Virus record (IMG/VR): IMGVR_UViG_3300023170_000037
Span: 1-54,359 of that record
DNA from: a virus
DNA: 54,359 bases
Strand: one strand, 5' to 3'
The translations under genes and the position numbers were made by a program. Below are positions 1,428 to 39,095 of the stretch, one piece after another. Every line of letters begins with the position of its first letter. Within the stretch, counting starts at the first letter, position 1. The notes beneath the pieces were generated by a model, which did no database searches, was not told the DNA's origin, and saw nothing but the letters and a program-made list of their open reading frames with translations.

Positions 1428-3145
1428 TATGTATTTTGTCCAATCCTACTAAATCCTTTTACCTTTTCAAATCTAACTACACTGTGGAACTTGTCATATA
1501 GTATATCGCCCTTGTGACTAATAACAAAAACATTATTACCACCCAAAGTATTTAGCAGTTTTAAAAACTCATCTGTTCCAGTTGCATCCAAAGAACTATC
1601 AAAAACTTCATCAAGAATAAGTAAATTGGTATTGACACTATTCTTCATGCGAGCAATTTCTCTCCAAGTAAATAGGAGGGCAAGATCAATACGCATTTTT
1701 TCACCTTCGGAGAAAGAAGGATATGTAAAGTTTTCTCTCGCTCTGGATTTAATATTCTCTGAGAATTTTTCATCCAAGGTAAAATTAATATAAAAATCCA
1801 TCTCTTGCAAATACTTGTTTATCAACTTATTCATGATTGGTAAGTAGTATTTTACAATAGAAGTTTTTACTCCAGTATCCTTTAGGAACTGAGAGGCAAC
1901 ATTATAATAATTTCTAGTATCTACTAATTCTCTTCTCTTGGAATCTAAATCTTTTGCCAGTTTTCTAAGTTCTTTTAGTTCCTCTTCTAAAGAATTCATA
2001 TTGTCATTATTACTTTCTGCATCCTCAATTTCTTTTTCAATTTCATCGATACTATCTTGGATAAAAGAAAAAGTGTTCATATTGGAACTCTTCTTATTAT
2101 TTAGCTCTAATATTTCTTTTTTAATAGTCTCAATTTCTTGTATTCTTTCTTGTGTTGAATCCAACTCTTTTTGAAGATCTAACAAGGCATTTTCTATTTC
2201 TTTTTTCTTGGTATTTTTAGAAGAAATTATTTCGTGTTTGTGTTCATCTTCAATATCTTGTTGACAAGAAGGACAAACATCTTTACTTTCAAACCAATTA
2301 ATATCACCTTCGATTTTGGAAATATTATTGTGCAGTTGAGTGTCTAACTTTTCTAATTTTTTATTCTTTGTTACTGCCTTTACTTCATCACCAATAGATA
2401 GTGCAAGTGTGTTTAGTTGACTATCATACTTCTCGTTTTCAGATAGTATTTTTTTCTGTTGAAGTCTCTTGTCTTTAATTTTTGTTTTGTTTTGTTTGAT
2501 AGAGGCAGACTTATCTTCATTCAACTGTTGAATATTTCTTTCTTGCAAATCAATCTTATAATCTTGTAACTCTCTTTCTTTTTCATTCTCAAACAATTCT
2601 TCTTTCAGTATTGTAGATTTTGTTTTAAGAATTTCATTCATGGCAGAAAATATTTTGATGTCGAGAATGTCTTCAATAATATCTCTTCGATCATTGGAAT
2701 TCAATTGCATGAAAGGAACAAAGGTTGCACTACCTAAAATAACTGTTTGGGTAAAAGATTTAAAATTAAGTTTAAGAATGTTTTCTTCTAGATAGATTTG
2801 ACTGTCTCTAATTTTAGAGTCTTGGTCTAACATCTTACCATCAATATAAACTTCGAATTTATTTGGTTTAATCGCTCGTCTTACCAAATATTCTCGTTTA
2901 CCTATTGAAAATTCAATTTCGATTACACAGTCTTTTTCATTAACAGTGTTAACAAGTTGCGGTTTGTTAATTTTACGGAAGGGTTTGCCGAATAGTCCAA
3001 ATGTTAGGGCATCAAGTATAGTAGACTTACCAGCGCCATTTTCCCCAACAATCAAAGTTGATGAAGTTCTATTTAACTGTATCTCTGTGAAATTATCACC
3101 TGTCGATAAGAAGTTTTTCCATCTAATCTTTTTAAATTCAATCAT
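1427..3145 (-). CDS. gp46: Recombination endonuclease subunit gp46 (Rad50/SbcC-like)
   Basis: This 572-aa SMC-type ATPase is close to T4 gp46 in length (560). Walker A GENGAGKS lies at residues 34-41. A long coiled coil follows, broken by a zinc hook CPSC at 291-294 that dimerises two coils. The ABC signature FSEGEKMRID is at 478-487, Walker B LLILDE at 508-513, the D-loop SSLD at 517-520 and the H-loop SHK at 543-545. All ATPase motifs are intact. With gp47 it forms the Mre11/Rad50-like complex that resects DNA ends for recombination-dependent replication and helps degrade host DNA. Its ATG directly follows the gp47 stop, so the pair is coupled. Confidence 0.96.
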   Translation of the reverse strand: MIEFKKIRWKNFLSTGDNFTEIQLNRTSSTLIVGENGAGKSTILDALTFGLFGKPFRKINKPQLVNTVNEKDCVIEIEFSIGKREYLVRRAIKPNKFEVYIDGKMLDQDSKIRDSQIYLEENILKLNFKSFTQTVILGSATFVPFMQLNSNDRRDIIEDILDIKIFSAMNEILKTKSTILKEELFENEKERELQDYKIDLQERNIQQLNEDKSASIKQNKTKIKDKRLQQKKILSENEKYDSQLNTLALSIGDEVKAVTKNKKLEKLDTQLHNNISKIEGDINWFESKDVCPSCQQDIEDEHKHEIISSKNTKKKEIENALLDLQKELDSTQERIQEIETIKKEILELNNKKSSNMNTFSFIQDSIDEIEKEIEDAESNNDNMNSLEEELKELRKLAKDLDSKRRELVDTRNYYNVASQFLKDTGVKTSIVKYYLPIMNKLINKYLQEMDFYINFTLDEKFSENIKSRARENFTYPSFSEGEKMRIDLALLFTWREIARMKNSVNTNLLILDEVFDSSLDATGTDEFLKLLNTLGGNNVFVISHKGDILYDKFHSVVRFEKVKGFSRIGQNT

Positions 3146-4171
3146 TTACGCACCTCTCAACGCAGAAACATACAAGTCTTGCATGATACTCTTTAACTTG
3201 TTTTTATCTACATCGATTTCATAGTTGTCTATATAATTTGTTAAAAGTGACATTGTATCTTCAGTTGCATCAATATCAGATGCCTCCTCAAAATCCCATT
3301 CAGTTGAATCATCTACAATTGATAAATCAGCAACTTCATTCCTATAAAGTTCATCCACAAAAACATCAAACTTATAAGAGTCCGTTTTATTTTTTACAAT
3401 CAACTTAACATATTTGTCTTTGTATTTGCTTGCAGAAATTTTTTCATCTTCGTCATAATAAACTTTGTGAAACATTTTATATGGGTTTATAATATGTTCT
3501 AGTTCTAATGTTTCAGTGTCAAAAATATGAAAACCTCTTTTATCATTACAATCAACCCATGTAATTTCATATGGATTTCCTAAGTAATGAATGTTTCCAT
3601 TGTGAGATTTATGATGGAAGTGGCCAGACATCACAATATCAAAATTTTTGAATAATTTTTTATCCATACCATCATGACACATCAATCCAGCGCCCATTTC
3701 AAATCCTGCGATTTCAAGATGTCCCATTGCAATCTTTGCTTTGGTTTTCTTTAAATGAGATATTGTGTTATCATAATTTTCTGAGTTAATCCAAGGAATA
3801 AAACATACATCTGTTCCATCAAAATTTAAAGTTGTGGTTTCAGTATAAATTTTTAATTCATCACCAAATAACTGTTCCATTGAATTAATGCGGTTTGTAT
3901 TTTTATAATACACATCATGATTACCAATGATAAAATAGGTATCGTATTTCTTTAGGCGCTCAATAAATCTACTTTTAAATCCATCTAAGATATTATAGTT
4001 AATAAACTTTCGTCTATCGGTTACATCACCTAAATGAATAACCGTGTCAATTCCATTATCTTCAAGATAAGGGAAGAAAACATTATCATAGAATTCCAAA
4101 AAATAATTATGAAATAGAATAGAGTCGCCTCGGGCACCAAAATGAGTGTCCGTAATCAATGCAATTTTCAT
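3146..4171 (-). CDS. gp47: Recombination endonuclease subunit gp47 (Mre11/SbcD-like)
   Basis: This 341-aa calcineurin-like phosphoesterase matches T4 gp47 in length (339). Metal-binding motifs are in order: DTH at residues 8-10, GD in HLGDVTDRR at 48-49, GNHD at 83-86, GH at 150-151 and GHFHH at 183-187. These coordinate two metal ions for exo- and endonuclease activity. The C-terminal half should contact the gp46 coiled-coil base. A Shine-Dalgarno AAGGAAG lies at the end of gp55, six bases of intergenic sequence separate the genes, and the stop abuts the gp46 start. It therefore belongs to the gp55-gp47-gp46 operon. Confidence 0.96.
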   Translation of the reverse strand: MKIALITDTHFGARGDSILFHNYFLEFYDNVFFPYLEDNGIDTVIHLGDVTDRRKFINYNILDGFKSRFIERLKKYDTYFIIGNHDVYYKNTNRINSMEQLFGDELKIYTETTTLNFDGTDVCFIPWINSENYDNTISHLKKTKAKIAMGHLEIAGFEMGAGLMCHDGMDKKLFKNFDIVMSGHFHHKSHNGNIHYLGNPYEITWVDCNDKRGFHIFDTETLELEHIINPYKMFHKVYYDEDEKISASKYKDKYVKLIVKNKTDSYKFDVFVDELYRNEVADLSIVDDSTEWDFEEASDIDATEDTMSLLTNYIDNYEIDVDKNKLKSIMQDLYVSALRGA

Positions 4172-4869: not shown

Positions 4870-5289
4870 TTAATGTATTATCTTATTAGAATGCTTCACT
4901 AACATCTCTAAGAAGTCATCTTGAGAATATTCTTCCGTTTCGTCCAAACTTACACTGTTCTCCACAGGAGAGGTATCGACTTCTTTCTCGATCTGAGCCT
5001 GAAAATTTTTATTGTTTAGAATCATTTGATAATGGTCAACTAAATCTTTACTTGGTTCATTAACGGTAATTATATCATTAAGTGCGACTTTTGTAAAGTT
5101 GTCTGTTGAAAAATTTAACCAATCAATGAGCGTAGTGCTAAACTCACCGTTCTGAGGGTTCATGAACGATTTAATTTCATATGGATTATGAAAAATTATA
5201 TAACCCTTCCCTTCTATTTCTTCGGGAGCGACTTGAGTGATTATATTTTCTTTTGTTATGAGTTTAATTAGTTTATACTCAATATTCAT
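4870..5289 (-). CDS. Conserved-type hypothetical protein between uvsW and gp55
   Basis: This 139-aa acidic protein has no catalytic motif I can name. The N-terminal half alternates strands: IEYKLIKLITKENI, then a GKGYIIFHNPYEI segment, then a region ending KVALNDIITVNEPS and VDHYQMILNN. That pattern resembles the small proteins with a possible Sm-like beta barrel found near the same recombination genes in marine T4-like phages. The fold resemblance is from memory and weak. The C-terminal 40 residues are acidic and probably disordered. An AAAAAAGGAC ribosome site precedes the ATG; uvsW lies 23 bases upstream, so they are probably co-transcribed. Confidence 0.7.
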   Translation of the reverse strand: MNIEYKLIKLITKENIITQVAPEEIEGKGYIIFHNPYEIKSFMNPQNGEFSTTLIDWLNFSTDNFTKVALNDIITVNEPSKDLVDHYQMILNNKNFQAQIEKEVDTSPVENSVSLDETEEYSQDDFLEMLVKHSNKIIH

Positions 5290-21434: not shown

Positions 21435-23951
21435 TTAACCTTTTAATGGTTCTGTGGGCGGTGTAAAGTTTGCGGTGTATCGTGCTAGGCCTTTGGTAAC
21501 ACGAAAATCTGAAATATATCCATTCAATAAATAAGGACTACTGTACCATCCTCCTATAACCAAATCTGTGCCGGTATAAATGTTTGTATCAGCTGTAGAA
21601 ATTAATTCAGTGCCATTTACATATAATTTTGCAGTTCCAGAATTTCTAACGTGAGCTACATGATACCAAGTACTTGCAACAGCAGCTCCAGTATTAGCAA
21701 ATACTACGCTAGTGCCAACATAGATAGCCCAATTCCCACTGTTGGCCATACCCGCAGCTGGCCCTAAAACACTAGAGGTTAGGACACCGTTAGCTAGTTG
21801 ATAAAGCCCCATGCCTACTGTAGGATCTGTATTAAAATAAATCCACGCTTCTATAGTAAAATCATCTGACCCCAAAGCTAACACATTCGAAGCGGCGTAA
21901 TCACCACTGCCATCAAAATACATTGACTTAGTATCCGCAAACTTAACCTGAGTCGTTGAACCAGTAGTATTACCAATCAACTTTAGGTTAGCGTTTTGAG
22001 ACTTATCTATAATCGAAGCGTCTGTTCCAATTACATGAACCGCTGCGGCCGAAGAACTAACTGGTTCAGTTGGTGGTGTAAAGTTTCCTGTATATACAAC
22101 TGTACCATTAAAAACACGCAAATCAGAAATGTACCCATTAAAGTCACTATCACCAGCGCTACTACTACCAATTAAAATTGCTTTATCCCCTGTTCCTGTT
22201 GCACTTCCTGTACTTGTGTATGTTCCAACAGATTCACCATTGATATACATAGTAAATGTACTTCCTGATCTAGTAATGGCTACATGATACCATTGATTAT
22301 CACTTATTGGGCCACTAGCAATTAGCATTGCATTACCCCCAATGCCTTGCATTGCTAAACATATAGAATCATTATCATCATTGTGTTTGTATAATATCGA
22401 CAATTGATTTGATCCCCACGGAGTGTTCTGTGGGCCAATTTGTAATACTCTTGGATAATTACGAGCTTTACTAATACCATATACCCAACAATCTATAGTA
22501 AAATCGTTAGTATCAAGTGTTAGTTCAGAGGATAATGCACTTTGAACATATTGTCCCGATCCACCACTTGTTGCAGTAGAACCACTGGTATCAAAATAAA
22601 TTGAACCACCGTGTGTTGCTGAATCGTATGAAAGATAATCATATGGGCTAAATGGTTGCGTTGAAACGTTACCGGCGACACCCACCGTATGATCATTTGT
22701 TGAACCATCAGTAATGTATGGTAAGTGGCAAGTAAGTAGGCTAGTATTTGTGATTGCTGTAAGGCGTGTTGTTGGCGGTGTAAATGCAGAAGTATAGACA
22801 GCGGTGCCTTTGACGATACGCAGATCACTAACATACCCATTTACACCAACCGTATTCAAATACGAACTTCCAATTCTAGGGTATGTTGAACCGCCAGAAA
22901 AATTTGTTGTATCTGAGTAGTTCGAACCTTCTTGTACACCATTTATGTATAACTTACTTGTGCCGGAGCTTCTTACAAGTGCAACGTGATACCAAGCACC
23001 GGCGACCAATGCAGTAGTCGATGAAATGCGATCTCCGGCAATATAATAATTTAAAATGTTTGATGAGTTTCTATAAATCGCTACTTGAGCATTTCCAAAA
23101 TTATCAAGAATGTTTTGTTGTGTTCCTGAAACATTAGGGTAATACCAAAACTCACAGGTAAAATCGCCAGTCCCAAAATTTGTTGTATTTGTTGAAGATG
23201 ATGGTTCTAAATAATCCCCACTACCATCAAAATAAGTCGAGTATCCACCATGCCTATACGGACTAAATGAACTTGATGTGGGTGCATTTATAGGCGAAAG
23301 TGTTAATGCATTTGTTGAAGAATCTGTAAAACTACTATTATTTGATGTATCTACCGCTGTTGCTAATAAAGTTGTGTAATTACTATTTAAAACCTGAAAT
23401 TGCAAGGATATAGATGTATTTGTACTCACCGCTCCATTCACACCATCAGTCGCATTAAGTGTTAAAGTAAATGTACCAGCGTCTGCTTCTGTAGTGCTAG
23501 GTGTAATAGTAAATACATTATCTGCTTGACTTATTGTAGCGATGCTACCAAGTCCACTTGTAGAATAACTCCATGTCAGAGGGAATCCTTCTGGGTCTGT
23601 AGAAACAGCAGTAATAACTGTAGGTGTTCCATCTATAGCGAGTGAATAAGTTCCATCCACTCCAGTGATCGCACTAGGCGAATCGTTTTGTACTGTAGCA
23701 ATCTTATACCAACCAGTTCCAGAATAGAGATAAAGATTGTTGTTTGCGGTAACAAATGCTTGATCTCCATCAGACATTCCAGTTGCAGCTATTAACGCAG
23801 TCATATCTGCATAGACAGTTATAGATGCACCACCACCAGAAGAAACTTCAGAACTTTCCCAATAACCTTTTGTGGCATTGTAAACATATGTTACATTACC
23901 CTCTGTTACTTCTTGTGCATTTGTCGGATTGCTTGGAAAATTAATTGCCAT
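21435..23951 (-). CDS. Triple LamG-domain tail adhesin (cassette copy A)
   Basis: This 838-aa protein starts with an anchor-like module (MAINFPSNPTNAQEVTEGNV to YNATKGYW). It continues with a VYADMTALIAATG module, a cadherin/Ig-like domain (about 88-185, DPEGFPLTWSYSTSGLGS) and three concanavalin/LamG domains at about 225-395, 440-630 and 670-838. Each LamG has the same landmarks: YFDGSGDYL, DFT-E-W-Y, WYHVALVRSSGT, LYINGV, and a closing FTPPTxP. Such domains usually bind sugars, so surface glycan recognition is likely. It is the last gene of its operon. The closest relative is the 31620-34037 gene, with stretches of identical DNA. Confidence 0.85.
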   Translation of the reverse strand: MAINFPSNPTNAQEVTEGNVTYVYNATKGYWESSEVSSGGGASITVYADMTALIAATGMSDGDQAFVTANNNLYLYSGTGWYKIATVQNDSPSAITGVDGTYSLAIDGTPTVITAVSTDPEGFPLTWSYSTSGLGSIATISQADNVFTITPSTTEADAGTFTLTLNATDGVNGAVSTNTSISLQFQVLNSNYTTLLATAVDTSNNSSFTDSSTNALTLSPINAPTSSSFSPYRHGGYSTYFDGSGDYLEPSSSTNTTNFGTGDFTCEFWYYPNVSGTQQNILDNFGNAQVAIYRNSSNILNYYIAGDRISSTTALVAGAWYHVALVRSSGTSKLYINGVQEGSNYSDTTNFSGGSTYPRIGSSYLNTVGVNGYVSDLRIVKGTAVYTSAFTPPTTRLTAITNTSLLTCHLPYITDGSTNDHTVGVAGNVSTQPFSPYDYLSYDSATHGGSIYFDTSGSTATSGGSGQYVQSALSSELTLDTNDFTIDCWVYGISKARNYPRVLQIGPQNTPWGSNQLSILYKHNDDNDSICLAMQGIGGNAMLIASGPISDNQWYHVAITRSGSTFTMYINGESVGTYTSTGSATGTGDKAILIGSSSAGDSDFNGYISDLRVFNGTVVYTGNFTPPTEPVSSSAAAVHVIGTDASIIDKSQNANLKLIGNTTGSTTQVKFADTKSMYFDGSGDYAASNVLALGSDDFTIEAWIYFNTDPTVGMGLYQLANGVLTSSVLGPAAGMANSGNWAIYVGTSVVFANTGAAVASTWYHVAHVRNSGTAKLYVNGTELISTADTNIYTGTDLVIGGWYSSPYLLNGYISDFRVTKGLARYTANFTPPTEPLKG
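21939..22013. repeat. 75-bp exact direct repeat, copy 1
   Basis: Base for base identical to 32133-32207, in the third LamG domain of the other adhesin. The coding flanks are similar but diverged, so this tract has been copied or conserved much more strongly than its surroundings. Confidence 0.9.
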
Positions 23952-31619: not shown

Positions 31620-34037
31620 TTAACCTTTTAGTGGTTCTGTTGGTGGTGTAAAGTTTGAGGTGTATCGTGCTAGGCCTTTGGTAACACGAAAATCTGACAT
31701 ATAACCGTCTAACTTAAAAGTAGCGGATGTATCCACATTATCTCTTAGAGTCGCAATTAACATTGATTCGTCAGTTAAATTAATACTTGATGTTACAGTA
31801 TTGACTGAAGATCCTGCAACATAAACAGTTATTGTTGATCCACTTCTAACAACAGCAACATGAGTCCATGTTGAATTAGTAATACTACCACCCACAGTAA
31901 AAGTTGAATTATTTACAACCATCCTCAACTCATTACCAGATGTTACATACAAAGCAACGCCAGTTGTAGATGTGTTTGTTGTTCTTGTATCCCAAATACC
32001 TTGATTTTTACTTGAATTTAAATATACCCAACATTCAACAGTATAATCACCGCCGCCTAATGCATGAATCTCAGATGATGAAATATTTAAATAATCCCCT
32101 GTCCCATCAAAATACATTGATTTTGTATCAGTAAACTTAACCTGAGTCGTTGAACCAGTAGTATTACCAATCAACTTTAGGTTAGCGTTTTGAGACTTAT
32201 CTATAATTGAAGCGTCTGTGCCTTGGATGTGTAACACCGATCCAGTTGAAGACAGAGGAGCAGTTGGTGGAGTAAATTCGTCAGTATAGTGTTCTGTTGG
32301 TAAAACCCTAATATCAGAAATATATCCTTGATAGTAATTCCCTGGCGATCCACCGTTTGCTGCATCAAATTCTGTGCCTATAGAAAAAGTACAATTTGAT
32401 AATGCGGTGCTTGGTGACCAAGTTTTAGTTTTAGAAAGCTGGCCGTTCATATATATTTTAATAACAGTTCCATTGTAGACTACTGCAAGATGGTTCCATG
32501 CATTGTTCTGTGCCTTTATGCTATAATTTTCGTCAACTCCAACATTCCACGTGCCCGTAGTCGCAATAAAAGTATTACCGCCGGATGCAGCGGTATTAAC
32601 ACCAAAAACAACATCATCAATCGTTCCCCCAGTAGCTGGAGCAGCTCTTGATGGATTAACCCATGCTTCCATTGTCCACGGATCAGTAGTTGAAGTAAAT
32701 CCATCAAGTGCCGTATCTGCCCGTAAATAATCGCCACTCCCATCAAAATAAACAGACCCGCCGTGATTAGCTGTTGAGTATATTTCGGTGTAGTCGAGTG
32801 GTTGATATGAAAAATGATCGTAATTTAATGTAAATGATATAGGACTCGTTGATTGATCGAATAAAGAACCAGCACTTAGACGAAATACAGTATTGGCGTC
32901 AGTTTTACTAATTTCTGTAGGAACTGTAATTGAAGAATTGTCTCCATAAACAACCGTATTACTAACTTTTATATCATACATATATCCGTCAAACCAGTTG
33001 CCTAGGGTTCCGCCATTTGCGCTATCTGCTTCAGCTCCAAACATCCAACTATCGTTTGAAAAATCTTGTGCTGGAAGATTTGTCTCGTAGACAATTCTGG
33101 TGCCGTTTGCCCAGATTTGTAGAGTATTATTAGTTGCATCTCTTTCAACAGCAATATGACTCCATGTATTAACTGTTACTCCGTTATCTGCCCACTCAGT
33201 AGGCAAACTTGTGACCACAGTATTCCATATGAATTCGTTTGTCATTAAATTAAACTGATTTGTCCCATCGGATATTGCGTTTGCAGCAATAAAGGTATCA
33301 TTACTGCTGGTCATACTATGTGGATACACCCACATAGAAATAGAAAAATCTCCAGTTCCTAAGGCATCGCCAATTTCATCGGCTCTTAAATAGTGTGATG
33401 AACCATTAAAATTCAATGCATATCCACCGTGCCGATAGGGGCTAAACGCCCCAGCATAAACATTTCCGTATCCCGTGACGGTGTGGTTGTTGGTCGAAGA
33501 ATCAGTAAAAACATTATTAGTGGTTGTGTCAACTGCTGTTGCTAATAAAGTTGTATATTGACTATTTGTAATAGCAAATATCAAATTGATTGATGTATTC
33601 GCACTAACCGCACCATTAACACCATCAGTTGCATTAATTGTAAGAGTAAATGTTCCCACATTAGCTTCATCAGTACTAGGAGTTATCGTGAATACATTAT
33701 CTGTTTGCGATACTGTAGCAATACTACCAAGTCCACTTGTAGAATAACTCCATGTCAGAGGGAATCCTTCAGGGTCTGTAGAAACCGCTGTGATTACAGT
33801 AGGAGTTCCGTCAGTTTCCAGTGAATAAGATCCAGAAACGCCAGTGATTGAACTTGGAGAATCGTTTTGTACTGTAGCAATTTTATACCAACCAGAACCA
33901 GCATACACATAGATGTTGTTGTTTGATTGTACAAACGCCTGAGCCCCGTCAGTTCCTGTTGCTGCAATCAATGCATTCATATCTGCATAGACAGTTGTAC
34001 CACTACTTGCATATCTTATACTTGAGTAATTCGTCAT
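31620..34037 (-). CDS. Triple LamG-domain tail adhesin, N-terminal module cut off (cassette B)
   Basis: This 805-aa protein is homologous to 21435-23951 but starts at MTNYSSIRYASSGTTVYADM, without the anchor module. The VYADM and cadherin/Ig-like parts are nearly the same (DPEGFPLTWSYSTSGLGS). Three LamG domains follow, with WSHIAVERDA, WNHLAVVYNG and WTHVAVVRSG in the same places, and the end FTPPTEPLKG is identical. In-frame directly before the ATG is a TAA, and before that the missing module as a 25-codon frame (34038-34115). The first two LamG domains have diverged more than the third. Translation may re-start at this ATG, because its own ribosome site is weak. Confidence 0.82.
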   Translation of the reverse strand: MTNYSSIRYASSGTTVYADMNALIAATGTDGAQAFVQSNNNIYVYAGSGWYKIATVQNDSPSSITGVSGSYSLETDGTPTVITAVSTDPEGFPLTWSYSTSGLGSIATVSQTDNVFTITPSTDEANVGTFTLTINATDGVNGAVSANTSINLIFAITNSQYTTLLATAVDTTTNNVFTDSSTNNHTVTGYGNVYAGAFSPYRHGGYALNFNGSSHYLRADEIGDALGTGDFSISMWVYPHSMTSSNDTFIAANAISDGTNQFNLMTNEFIWNTVVTSLPTEWADNGVTVNTWSHIAVERDATNNTLQIWANGTRIVYETNLPAQDFSNDSWMFGAEADSANGGTLGNWFDGYMYDIKVSNTVVYGDNSSITVPTEISKTDANTVFRLSAGSLFDQSTSPISFTLNYDHFSYQPLDYTEIYSTANHGGSVYFDGSGDYLRADTALDGFTSTTDPWTMEAWVNPSRAAPATGGTIDDVVFGVNTAASGGNTFIATTGTWNVGVDENYSIKAQNNAWNHLAVVYNGTVIKIYMNGQLSKTKTWSPSTALSNCTFSIGTEFDAANGGSPGNYYQGYISDIRVLPTEHYTDEFTPPTAPLSSTGSVLHIQGTDASIIDKSQNANLKLIGNTTGSTTQVKFTDTKSMYFDGTGDYLNISSSEIHALGGGDYTVECWVYLNSSKNQGIWDTRTTNTSTTGVALYVTSGNELRMVVNNSTFTVGGSITNSTWTHVAVVRSGSTITVYVAGSSVNTVTSSINLTDESMLIATLRDNVDTSATFKLDGYMSDFRVTKGLARYTSNFTPPTEPLKG
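32133..32207. repeat. 75-bp exact direct repeat, copy 2
   Basis: Identical to 21939-22013, about 10.2 kb away, in the same direction and at the same place in the homologous gene. Homologous recombination between the two would delete the region between them. Confidence 0.9.
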
Positions 34038-34115
34038 TTAACTGTCCGTCCATGTTTTAGAACCTACAACATGAGTATCGCCGTCAGAGGGAGATGTAGG
34101 AAAGTTGATGGCCAT
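34038..34115 (-). pseudogene. Severed anchor module of the LamG adhesin (25 codons)
   Basis: ATG at 34115 has a strong AAGGAG ribosome site. It encodes MAINFPTSPSDGDTHVVGSK then TWTDS and a TAA stop at 34040-34038. The sequence is the anchor module that begins the other fibre and adhesin genes here (MAINFPSNPT, MAVNFPDSPS). The TAA is directly followed, in the same frame, by the ATG of the 805-aa gene, so a single readthrough would rejoin the intact arrangement. It is a recent nonsense event, a remnant of a lost anchor gene such as the glycine-rich one in cassette A, or an error in the assembly. Confidence 0.8.
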
Positions 34116-34126
34116 TTATCATCTCC

Positions 34127-35314
34127 TTAGTACCATGTTTGAATTTCTGTGACTGTTCCACCACCACCGCCACCTTCGCCTGCGGCTCCAGTACTGTCAA
34201 TAATTCTTGCGCTGGTGTGACTTCTAGACCCAGATTGTAACTTGTTCAATTCGTTTAAATCGTAAGGAGTTAAATTACTGAAACTTCCTACTGAAATTCT
34301 TTTTTCTGTATTAAAGAATCCATCATCTGGTAAGTTGGAAATAAGATCTTTTCTTGATGCAATACTTATTTGGTCAAAATAAACTAGGCGGCTTTGTTCG
34401 TCTATAGTTTTTAATGTCAATCTTTCTGTTGGTAAAGTATTTGGTAAAATTTCTTTTGATACAGTTATAACATTAGTAGAGATTATATCTCCAACTTTAA
34501 TGTTTGAATTATGATTGAATGTAGTAGACTCTTCATATTCTTCCACCATCAATCCTGCCGTTGGGACAGTTGTTGTTCTATCTGGATCAAACATATACAT
34601 TGCAGAGTTGTTATCGAAGGTATATGTTCCTGCTGTAAATGTTCTTTCATAAACAGCTTCGTCTGCTGAACTATCTTGAATAATATTTCCAGCATTACCA
34701 ATACTTGTCCAACCAGTTGTATCAACTGCGCCCCAGTTTGTCTGCCTTATCATATAAACAGTTGTTGTAAATGCAAAGGTAATATCAATTGCGTCACTGG
34801 TATTAATTTCTTGAGTTGCGACAAGTCCTTGTAAATCAACTCCAATATTTGATTGAGTATTCTGTAGATTATTATATGTAGTCCACCCATTTACTGGAAT
34901 ATACAACTGCAATCCGTTCACTGCAATTCCAAGTGGTTGAGCCCAACTTGAAGACAATGTAATTCCACAGTTTGCAACACTTAAAGTATCAGTTGACGAA
35001 ACTTGTTGATCTCCACCAGTAGAATTAATTGTGTAATATCCAAGCCCAAAGGTATGTGTGTTTGGTGTTTCAAAGGGTGCGGAATCAGTTTCTACCAATA
35101 AAGGTAATGTTTCAAGAACAACCGAATGATTTGGATTGCTCCTTGAAACATTGATAGTTGTTATCGATTGATTTTCTGGGTCACCTACATATTTGTCTGT
35201 TGGCAAGGAAGACCATGTATCACTAGTATCAGAGACATTTAGGTTGAATTTACCAAAATGTACTCCGATACCTTGTGTGTCTCCACCTTGTGACCTAATA
35301 CTAATTGCACCCAT
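34127..35314 (-). CDS. Virion protein with IQ-x-W tail (cassette B)
   Basis: This 395-aa, beta-rich protein has no named family. It starts MGAISIRSQGGDTQGIGVHF, has a central region with FTAGTYTFDNNSAMYMFDPD, and ends GGGGGGTVTEIQTWY. The ending and the PTAG and ARIID segments resemble the 639-aa protein in the same place of cassette A, which has a glycine-rich domain this one lacks. It lies between the 604-aa protein and the severed anchor module. I infer a linker or adhesin part of the tail. An AAGGTGAAC site precedes the ATG. Confidence 0.7.
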   Translation of the reverse strand: MGAISIRSQGGDTQGIGVHFGKFNLNVSDTSDTWSSLPTDKYVGDPENQSITTINVSRSNPNHSVVLETLPLLVETDSAPFETPNTHTFGLGYYTINSTGGDQQVSSTDTLSVANCGITLSSSWAQPLGIAVNGLQLYIPVNGWTTYNNLQNTQSNIGVDLQGLVATQEINTSDAIDITFAFTTTVYMIRQTNWGAVDTTGWTSIGNAGNIIQDSSADEAVYERTFTAGTYTFDNNSAMYMFDPDRTTTVPTAGLMVEEYEESTTFNHNSNIKVGDIISTNVITVSKEILPNTLPTERLTLKTIDEQSRLVYFDQISIASRKDLISNLPDDGFFNTEKRISVGSFSNLTPYDLNELNKLQSGSRSHTSARIIDSTGAAGEGGGGGGTVTEIQTWY

Positions 35315-37412: not shown

Positions 37413-37420
37413 TATTTATA
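37413..37420 (-). promoter_or_regulatory. T4-type late promoter for cassette B adhesin genes
   Basis: Exact TATAAATA whose bases 3-5 (37418-37416) are the TAA stop of the 559-aa fibre gene. It lies 28 bases before the 75-aa gene and would drive 75 aa, 604 aa, 395 aa and the LamG gene. Confidence 0.85.
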
Positions 37421-39095
37421 CTTTTTTATATGTAAACTGCAGATAGAGGTCTTGGCCAACAGAGTTAGTTCCAATACTCGTAATATCAACTGTTAAATAA
37501 TCTCCAGCATTCATTGTAAAAAATGGGGCAACAATATTTGTTGTTGTGGTATTTGGAGAAAATGAAACAGTTTTTGCAGAAACTCCGTTATTCTTTACAT
37601 CTATACCTACAATATTATCTGCAGCGGTTCCAAGATTTGCTGAAATACCTACTATCTGTAAATCAAAAGGAGCATACCATCTCTTTGTGCCAGTGATTAC
37701 TTGTAAATCTCCACCTTGATGCATATTAATATTAAATACAGTTTCATCTTTAATCTTATCTGTTACTTGTGCGGTTGTTGGTTTGTCTGCAGTTTCTGTA
37801 TTTACTAAATTTGCAATCTTTGACTGAAATTGAGAAGTAGAATCTAAGTACTCTCCCATATCTTGTACTTTAAATTTCCCTGCAGTTCCATCATAAACCA
37901 AACAAACATTATCGACATCTGCAAGAGTTCTTTTAGGTCGTATTTCAACTGGAGTTATGTGTCCGTCTTGATCGTGTTGGAAATATAAAACATAATTACC
38001 ATCTACATTTGTTTCTACTGCCAAGTCTTTAATTGTAATCATACCCCTCATAGGATTATGATTACCACACTGATAATATAATGTATCTGGTGCATCATTT
38101 GGAACGGTAAATACCAAAGTTCCACTTTCATTTCTCGAACCTGTTACGCCAGAAGTGTATTCATCGACATAATTTCCTGCAGAATAATTAGTACCATCGT
38201 CTGTGGTTAAATAAAATGGATGTCCAGAAAGTGATGCGTCTAAATTAAAAGTATATGTACCACCACGATAGAATGGGCCAATATCTGGATTATCTCCGTG
38301 TGCAGAACCCATGAATGTATATGCTCCTGTTGATACAAAAGATACATCATATGATACATTTGGTGCATTTAAAGTTGGTGGGGTGATCGTAGATGGAACA
38401 TTTATAACAAGTCTTTGTACCTCTGTTGGACTACCACCATTGATATTTGGATTAGTAACTCCTGTAACACTGTCTGTGTTTACTGCCCACGAAACTAAAT
38501 TATCTATGCCGGCGCCCGCAATCCACTTAAGATAAATTTTATGTGTTTGGGTCATATTACTATGTAATTCATGAGCAGCAAAATTATTTACTGTATAAGT
38601 TCCCTGATTATACAATGGAACATTTGATTGAATTAAATTAATTATCTTAAGTCTACTATATGCAACCGATCCCGCTTCCCAAGTCCACTTCCAATTCATA
38701 CCAGCGCCTGCATCTGGTGCATCTACATTTAATGTAAATATTTCATCTGATATTGTTACATCGATGTCAGACAATTCTTCTACTGCACTTGGAATTGTCG
38801 TGCCGTCAATAACAGTTCCAGCCGGCAACCCTAAAACTCCATTTTCATCCACAGACAAGGCAGTATCGCCCAAATAGATAGTGTTACCACTCAAATAAAT
38901 ATCACGGAATCTTTGTGTTGTACTTCCTAAATCATAAACTTCATTTGCATTTGGTAAAACATGTCCATTAACGACTGGTGGTGCGGTTGTAGATTGTTTT
39001 GCCCACACACCTTTTGTAGAATTGTAAATATACACAATTCCATTTGCGGTAAAGTTGTCACCATTTGAGGGACTATCTGGAAAATTTACAGCCAT
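37416..39095 (-). CDS. Tail fibre protein with cupredoxin-like domain (cassette B)
   Basis: This 559-aa homologue of the 692-aa fibre has the same anchor module (MAVNFPDSPSNGDNFTANGI) but one YDLGS-RFRD-LSGN unit where the other has two. The beta domain is the same (AAHELHSNMTQTHKIYLKWI). The cupredoxin-like domain is at about 248-355, with possible ligands His292 (GHPF), Cys343, His346 and Met349 (CGNHNPM). The C-terminus matches (KRWYAPFDLQ, GQDLYLQFTYK). No octamer lies in the three-base gap before it, so it is probably co-transcribed with the giant fibre gene. Its stop lies inside the next promoter. Confidence 0.82.
   Translation of the reverse strand: MAVNFPDSPSNGDNFTANGIVYIYNSTKGVWAKQSTTAPPVVNGHVLPNANEVYDLGSTTQRFRDIYLSGNTIYLGDTALSVDENGVLGLPAGTVIDGTTIPSAVEELSDIDVTISDEIFTLNVDAPDAGAGMNWKWTWEAGSVAYSRLKIINLIQSNVPLYNQGTYTVNNFAAHELHSNMTQTHKIYLKWIAGAGIDNLVSWAVNTDSVTGVTNPNINGGSPTEVQRLVINVPSTITPPTLNAPNVSYDVSFVSTGAYTFMGSAHGDNPDIGPFYRGGTYTFNLDASLSGHPFYLTTDDGTNYSAGNYVDEYTSGVTGSRNESGTLVFTVPNDAPDTLYYQCGNHNPMRGMITIKDLAVETNVDGNYVLYFQHDQDGHITPVEIRPKRTLADVDNVCLVYDGTAGKFKVQDMGEYLDSTSQFQSKIANLVNTETADKPTTAQVTDKIKDETVFNINMHQGGDLQVITGTKRWYAPFDLQIVGISANLGTAADNIVGIDVKNNGVSAKTVSFSPNTTTTNIVAPFFTMNAGDYLTVDITSIGTNSVGQDLYLQFTYKKV

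Follow-up and report, generated by a model that had tools for sequence, protein, structure and literature searches.

A 25-codon frame ahead of a phage tail adhesin gene as the probable scar of a 3,272-bp deletion

A frame of 25 codons that stands directly before an 805-aa tail adhesin gene in this virus is very probably a deletion scar, a product of routine genome wear rather than an anchor that is broken or read through. The window, by which we mean the whole stretch of DNA analysed, is a virus record of 54,359 bases, and we compared it with three related viral contigs: L003 (IMGVR 3300021379_000005), L004 (3300025771_000012, a single contig on which loci L004, L008, L091 and L095 all lie) and L088/L090 (3300023172_000022). 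A first-pass annotation had described an AAGGAG, an ATG at 34115, 25 codons, a TAA and then the ATG of the 805-aa gene, and this layout was confirmed with its coordinates. The first two bases of the AAGGAG (34128-34123) are part of the TAA stop of the 395-aa gene before it, and the adhesin ATG (34037-34035, minus strand) follows directly 3' of the frame's own TAA, giving TAAATG. The features, as we read them, are:

34127..35314, minus strand: 395-aa gene, the left anchor of the comparison; protein 99% identical to L003 and 94% to L004
34123..34128, minus strand: Shine-Dalgarno AAGGAG, 7 bases 5' of the ATG of the 25-codon frame
34038..34115, minus strand: the 25-codon frame and putative scar, MAINFPTSPSDGDTHVVGSKTWTDS-TAA; ATG 34115-34113, TAA 34040-34038
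34055..34115, minus strand: piece from the 5' end of the presumed lost 577-aa gp9-like tail gene, equivalent to L003 5200-5260
34048..34054, minus strand: CATGGAC, sole remaining copy of a 7-base direct repeat and likely deletion breakpoint (L003 5261 and 8533)
34038..34047, minus strand: final codons and apparent native TAA of the presumed lost 68-aa gene (L003 8343-8549, ...PTDPQSWTDS-TAA)
31620..34037, minus strand: 805-aa tail adhesin with LamG domains, intact and headed by its own MTNYSSIRY; its ATG abuts the TAA
29505..31583, minus strand: 692-aa gene, second intact paralogue of the 577-aa gene (context)
37416..39095, minus strand: intact 559-aa gp9-like paralogue of the 577-aa gene (context)
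21435..23951, minus strand: 838-aa sister LamG adhesin with a MAINFP head (context)

The join and the gene order in relatives

L003 is 98% identical to the window upstream of the feature, and its counterparts of the 395-aa and adhesin genes enclose four intact genes: the 577-aa gp9-like tail gene, genes of about 86 and about 376 aa, and a 68-aa gene. The 577-aa gene starts MAINFPTSPSDGDTHVVGSKTWTYNSTKG, continues into a longer head (MAINFPTSPSDGDTHVVGSKTWTYNSTKGAW) and uses the same Shine-Dalgarno as the stump in the window. The 25-residue frame matches the head of this protein at 23 of 23 residues. The frame had been taken for the module that starts the 838-aa sister adhesin, and that likeness is only loose, with 9 of 25 residues identical to MAINFPSNPTNAQEVTEGNVTYVYN in an ungapped comparison. 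At the far end, the 68-aa gene of L003 closes with GGGGSSGPTDPQSWTDS, and its TAA adjoins the ATG of the adhesin homologue MTNYSSIRYASSG.

The DNA of the window follows L003 up to position 5267 and again from 8530, with nothing between, and the overlap is CATGGAC. Set side by side, the left parent (TCTAAAACATGGACATATAAT), the right parent (CCACAATCATGGACGGATAGTTAAATG) and the window (TCTAAAACATGGACGGACAGTTAAATG) meet in this heptamer. The distance from repeat to repeat in L003 (5261 and 8533) is 3,272 bp, which is the stretch missing from the window, and at this base composition a random join would show at least seven matching bases with a chance of about 6e-4. The suggestion that the frame is the remnant of a deleted anchor gene was right in that it is the stump of a deleted gene; the gene is the 577-aa gp9-like one, and its stump is joined to the last codons of another. 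A lost base or frameshift within a MAINFP head, which normally continues TYNST.GxW, was dropped as an explanation; comparison with L003 traces the bases 3' of CATGGAC to the 68-aa gene.

By this comparison the ancestral phage very probably had the 395-aa gene followed by the 577-aa, ~86-aa, ~376-aa and 68-aa genes, the TAA of the last standing directly before the ATG of the LamG adhesin. Of the two heptamers, one lay in the 577-aa gene, at its codons 21-23, and the other near the end of the 68-aa gene, a few codons short of the stop. Through recombination between them, or slippage during replication, 3,272 bp and one repeat copy were removed, and the beginning of the first gene came to run into the end of the last, in phase with the latter's stop. 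Because a join falls in phase by chance about one time in three, its phase is no strong evidence of selection.

The third contig, L088/L090, holds all four genes complete behind another gene, with the 577-aa and 68-aa proteins 87% and 82% identical. Its TAAATG stands in the same place but leads into a different gene, MPISLPDSPTDGQ (MPISLPDSP...), so the stop and the TAAATG junction belong to the 68-aa gene. We read the TAA as the native stop of that gene and the ATG as the native start of the adhesin. The same contig gives the event its polarity as a deletion, since the lost genes stand complete elsewhere; on this comparison the four genes form the established set, and the window and L004 carry a derived, deleted form. 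The sample comprises two contigs with the join (the window and L004) and two with the intact genes (L003 and L088/L090). The locus has the marks of a deletion between short repeats: an ancestral form in a close relative, a repeat at both ends with one copy left at the join, and the lost genes complete in L088/L090.

The opposite direction would make the 25-codon frame the ancestral state and the extra 3.27 kb of L003 an inserted cassette, with CATGGAC duplicated in the process; it too would account for a direct repeat at both ends, as a target duplication. The insertion, however, would need to have supplied exactly the missing parts of two separate proteins; the 577-aa gene shows homology to the 559-aa and 692-aa genes throughout its length, and another contig, with other neighbours, has all four genes complete. 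Insertion is very unlikely. In line with a deletion, no copy of the 376-aa gene was found elsewhere in the window or anywhere in the L004 contig, and no relative of the 68-aa gene in the window; these viral records are fragments, and a lost gene could sit in an unsequenced part. Two paralogues of the 577-aa gene persist in both the window and L004 records.

A second copy of the join and the mosaic around it

L004 has the same join, with the frame MAINFPTSPSDGDIHVVGSKTWTDR. It differs from the window by five substitutions in the 78 bases of the join, two of which change residues, and the codon before the stop is altered. Because L004 carries the join with substitutions of its own, we take it as a real, inherited allele. 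A base-calling or assembly error at 34038-34040, or a chimeric join, had been raised earlier and has nothing in its favour beyond the oddity of the feature; with an independent contig showing the same join and the TAA also ending the 68-aa gene in two further contigs, it has next to no probability. A scan for the exact DNA of the join (ACATGGACGGACAGTTAAATGACGAATTAC) found no match, L004 differing by two bases, and a degenerate pattern recovered L004 only. That the 25-residue frame might be a separate conserved gene, such as a stand-alone small anchor gene, did not hold up: among all fetched loci, short MAINFP-type frames occurred only in the window and the L004 contig.

In the 1.3 kb immediately upstream of the join, the window is nearer to L003 than to L004, and the three-way site pattern shows a long tract private to L004. 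With the window nearer to L003, a single shared deletion requires some recombination in L004, or the deletion occurred twice at the same repeat. The L004-private tract is best read as recombination in L004; the alternative, two separate deletions at one repeat, is also compatible with the three-way site pattern. From 35.4 to 34.07 kb of the window, along the 395-aa gene, L004 differs from both the window and L003, and elsewhere the window is often nearer to L004. We interpret the relationship among the window, L003 and L004 as a recombination mosaic. The adhesin itself shows a further discontinuity. Its middle (33.5-31.7 kb of the window) can hardly be aligned with the L003 and L004 homologues, at about 45-60% identity, and its start, its far end and the flanks are mostly more than 90% identical to them. 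The receptor-facing part of the adhesin appears to have been swapped as a block.

The adhesin head and its translation

The 805-aa and 838-aa proteins each contain three LamG-type (PF13385) stretches and match PHROG tail and virion families. The MTNYSSIRY head, with the same start, is present in L003 and L004, and other heads in the family, MTNYATIRY (L024/L025/L090) and MANYIDIK (L059/L082), all stand behind different upstream sequence. Throughout the fetched loci the common adhesin domain follows a wide variety of heads; MAINFP is just the commonest kind. Because MTNY and MANY heads recur behind unrelated upstream sequence, the 805-aa protein lost nothing and is missing no anchor. Start and head are shown by these comparisons to be native to the 805-aa adhesin; each head presumably attaches its protein to the virion. 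The same homologues overturn the earlier view that the stop parts an anchor from the adhesin and leaves this copy unanchored or dependent on read-through. In a phage collection, relatives of the 805-aa and lost 577-aa proteins were mostly those of T4-like Synechococcus and Prochlorococcus phages, at low identity.

Read-through of the TAA at some rate, which would give a fraction of adhesin a MAINFP head as tail anchor, draws on two facts: the reading frame continues past the TAA, and this kind of head starts other adhesins. But the same TAA closes a complete 68-aa protein in L003 and L088, with two different genes behind it, and the proteins before and after it differ among relatives, which is not the pattern of programmed read-through. 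The product would moreover include just 22-23 residues of the head, without its conserved TYNSTKGAW end; MTNY-headed homologues occur without any MAINFP stump, and the codon before the stop is changed in L004. We consider read-through extremely improbable. The in-frame relation of TAA and ATG, once thought meaningful, is uninformative: the TAAATG adjacency forces this phase on any frame that ends there, and the 68-aa gene in L003 and the different downstream gene in L088 show it too.

The two ribosome-binding sites differ in predicted strength. The anti-Shine-Dalgarno duplex of the stump's AAGGAG has an energy of -9.1 kcal/mol; L004 has an identical site, and so does L003, as the ribosome-binding site of the 577-aa gene. 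The adhesin's own site is weak, at -5.5 kcal/mol, and the same in L003. The stop and the next start lie within a few bases of each other (TAAATG), as in coupled gene pairs. Termination-reinitiation acts over very short distances only, and roughly the final 15 nt of the upstream gene are enough for it (PMC10666635). The 68-aa gene would have handed ribosomes on to the weak adhesin start before the deletion; after it, the stump, equipped with the strong ribosome-binding site of the 577-aa gene, would pass terminating ribosomes to that start instead. We infer, with moderate confidence, that the stump still feeds the adhesin start by termination-reinitiation.

A further reading is that the 25-codon frame has been retained because it works as a leader peptide adjusting the translation of the adhesin, and is not just a tolerated scar. 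The strong Shine-Dalgarno, the open frame in both copies and the stop abutting the next gene's start are compatible with such a role. The coupling role, however, predates the deletion, having been held by the 68-aa gene; of the five substitutions that separate the copies, two alter residues, a number too small to demonstrate selection, and no further copies were found in the fetched loci. A functional leader peptide is unlikely, and quite unlikely in the fuller form in which the scar was recruited to set the level of adhesin translation and a new element of translational control arose from a deletion that happened by chance.

The lost genes and known systems

The 577-aa protein of L003 matches the PHROG 677 profile over residues 258-338 (E 3.9e-20), and tblastn with it retrieved gp9 of Prochlorococcus and Synechococcus phages. 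The set of ~86-aa, 376-aa and small proteins recurs as a unit (L003 6934-8549, L088 3101-4707 and L078/L079 about 2228-3832), with relatives of the 376-aa protein at 56-78% identity and one, in L062, at 36%. The 376-aa and 68-aa proteins had no Pfam or PHROGs match at the limit used. Several otherwise different proteins of the tail cluster have a glycine-rich stretch and, right at the stop, a short [QE][ST]W tag: EIQTWY, GPIQSWSS, DPQSWTDS, TETESWF, DPQSWSDA and EAQSWSDG. The tags occur at window 34127 (395-aa gene) and 25444 (639-aa gene), L003 8549, L006 4903, L062 2254 and L074 415. The ending may serve these proteins in common as a C-terminal tag for assembly or docking.

The locus illustrates how tail-gene clusters of these phages shrink: short repeats within tail genes can drop whole gene sets and still leave the next gene's translation connected. 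It is a caution, too: a stop that precedes an adhesin in a phage genome may mark a past deletion, not a switch. Apart from these two points the finding is ordinary.

The literature offered background on coupling and on T4-type mosaicism, with nothing on this locus. The tail-fibre regions of T4-related phages are mosaic, with gains and losses (PMC2993671). The lost 577-aa gene resembles, by its profile match, the baseplate wedge tail fiber connector (gp9) of T4-like cyanophages, PHROG 677; the match covers an inner stretch outside the MAINFP head, whereas the window keeps only the first 22-23 codons, without the matched part. In coupled gene pairs, the upstream stop and downstream start lie within a few bases on one strand (PMC6728339, PMC10666635). 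Unlike termination-reinitiation pairs with an overlap of 1 or 4 nt, stop and start here are adjacent (TAAATG), and the upstream frame is probably a deletion product. As in other deletions between short direct repeats, which come about by illegitimate recombination or replication slippage, an internal stretch was apparently lost and one repeat copy left; there is no difference in kind, and what sets this case apart is that the join yields a short frame that has a good ribosome-binding site and ends beside the next start.
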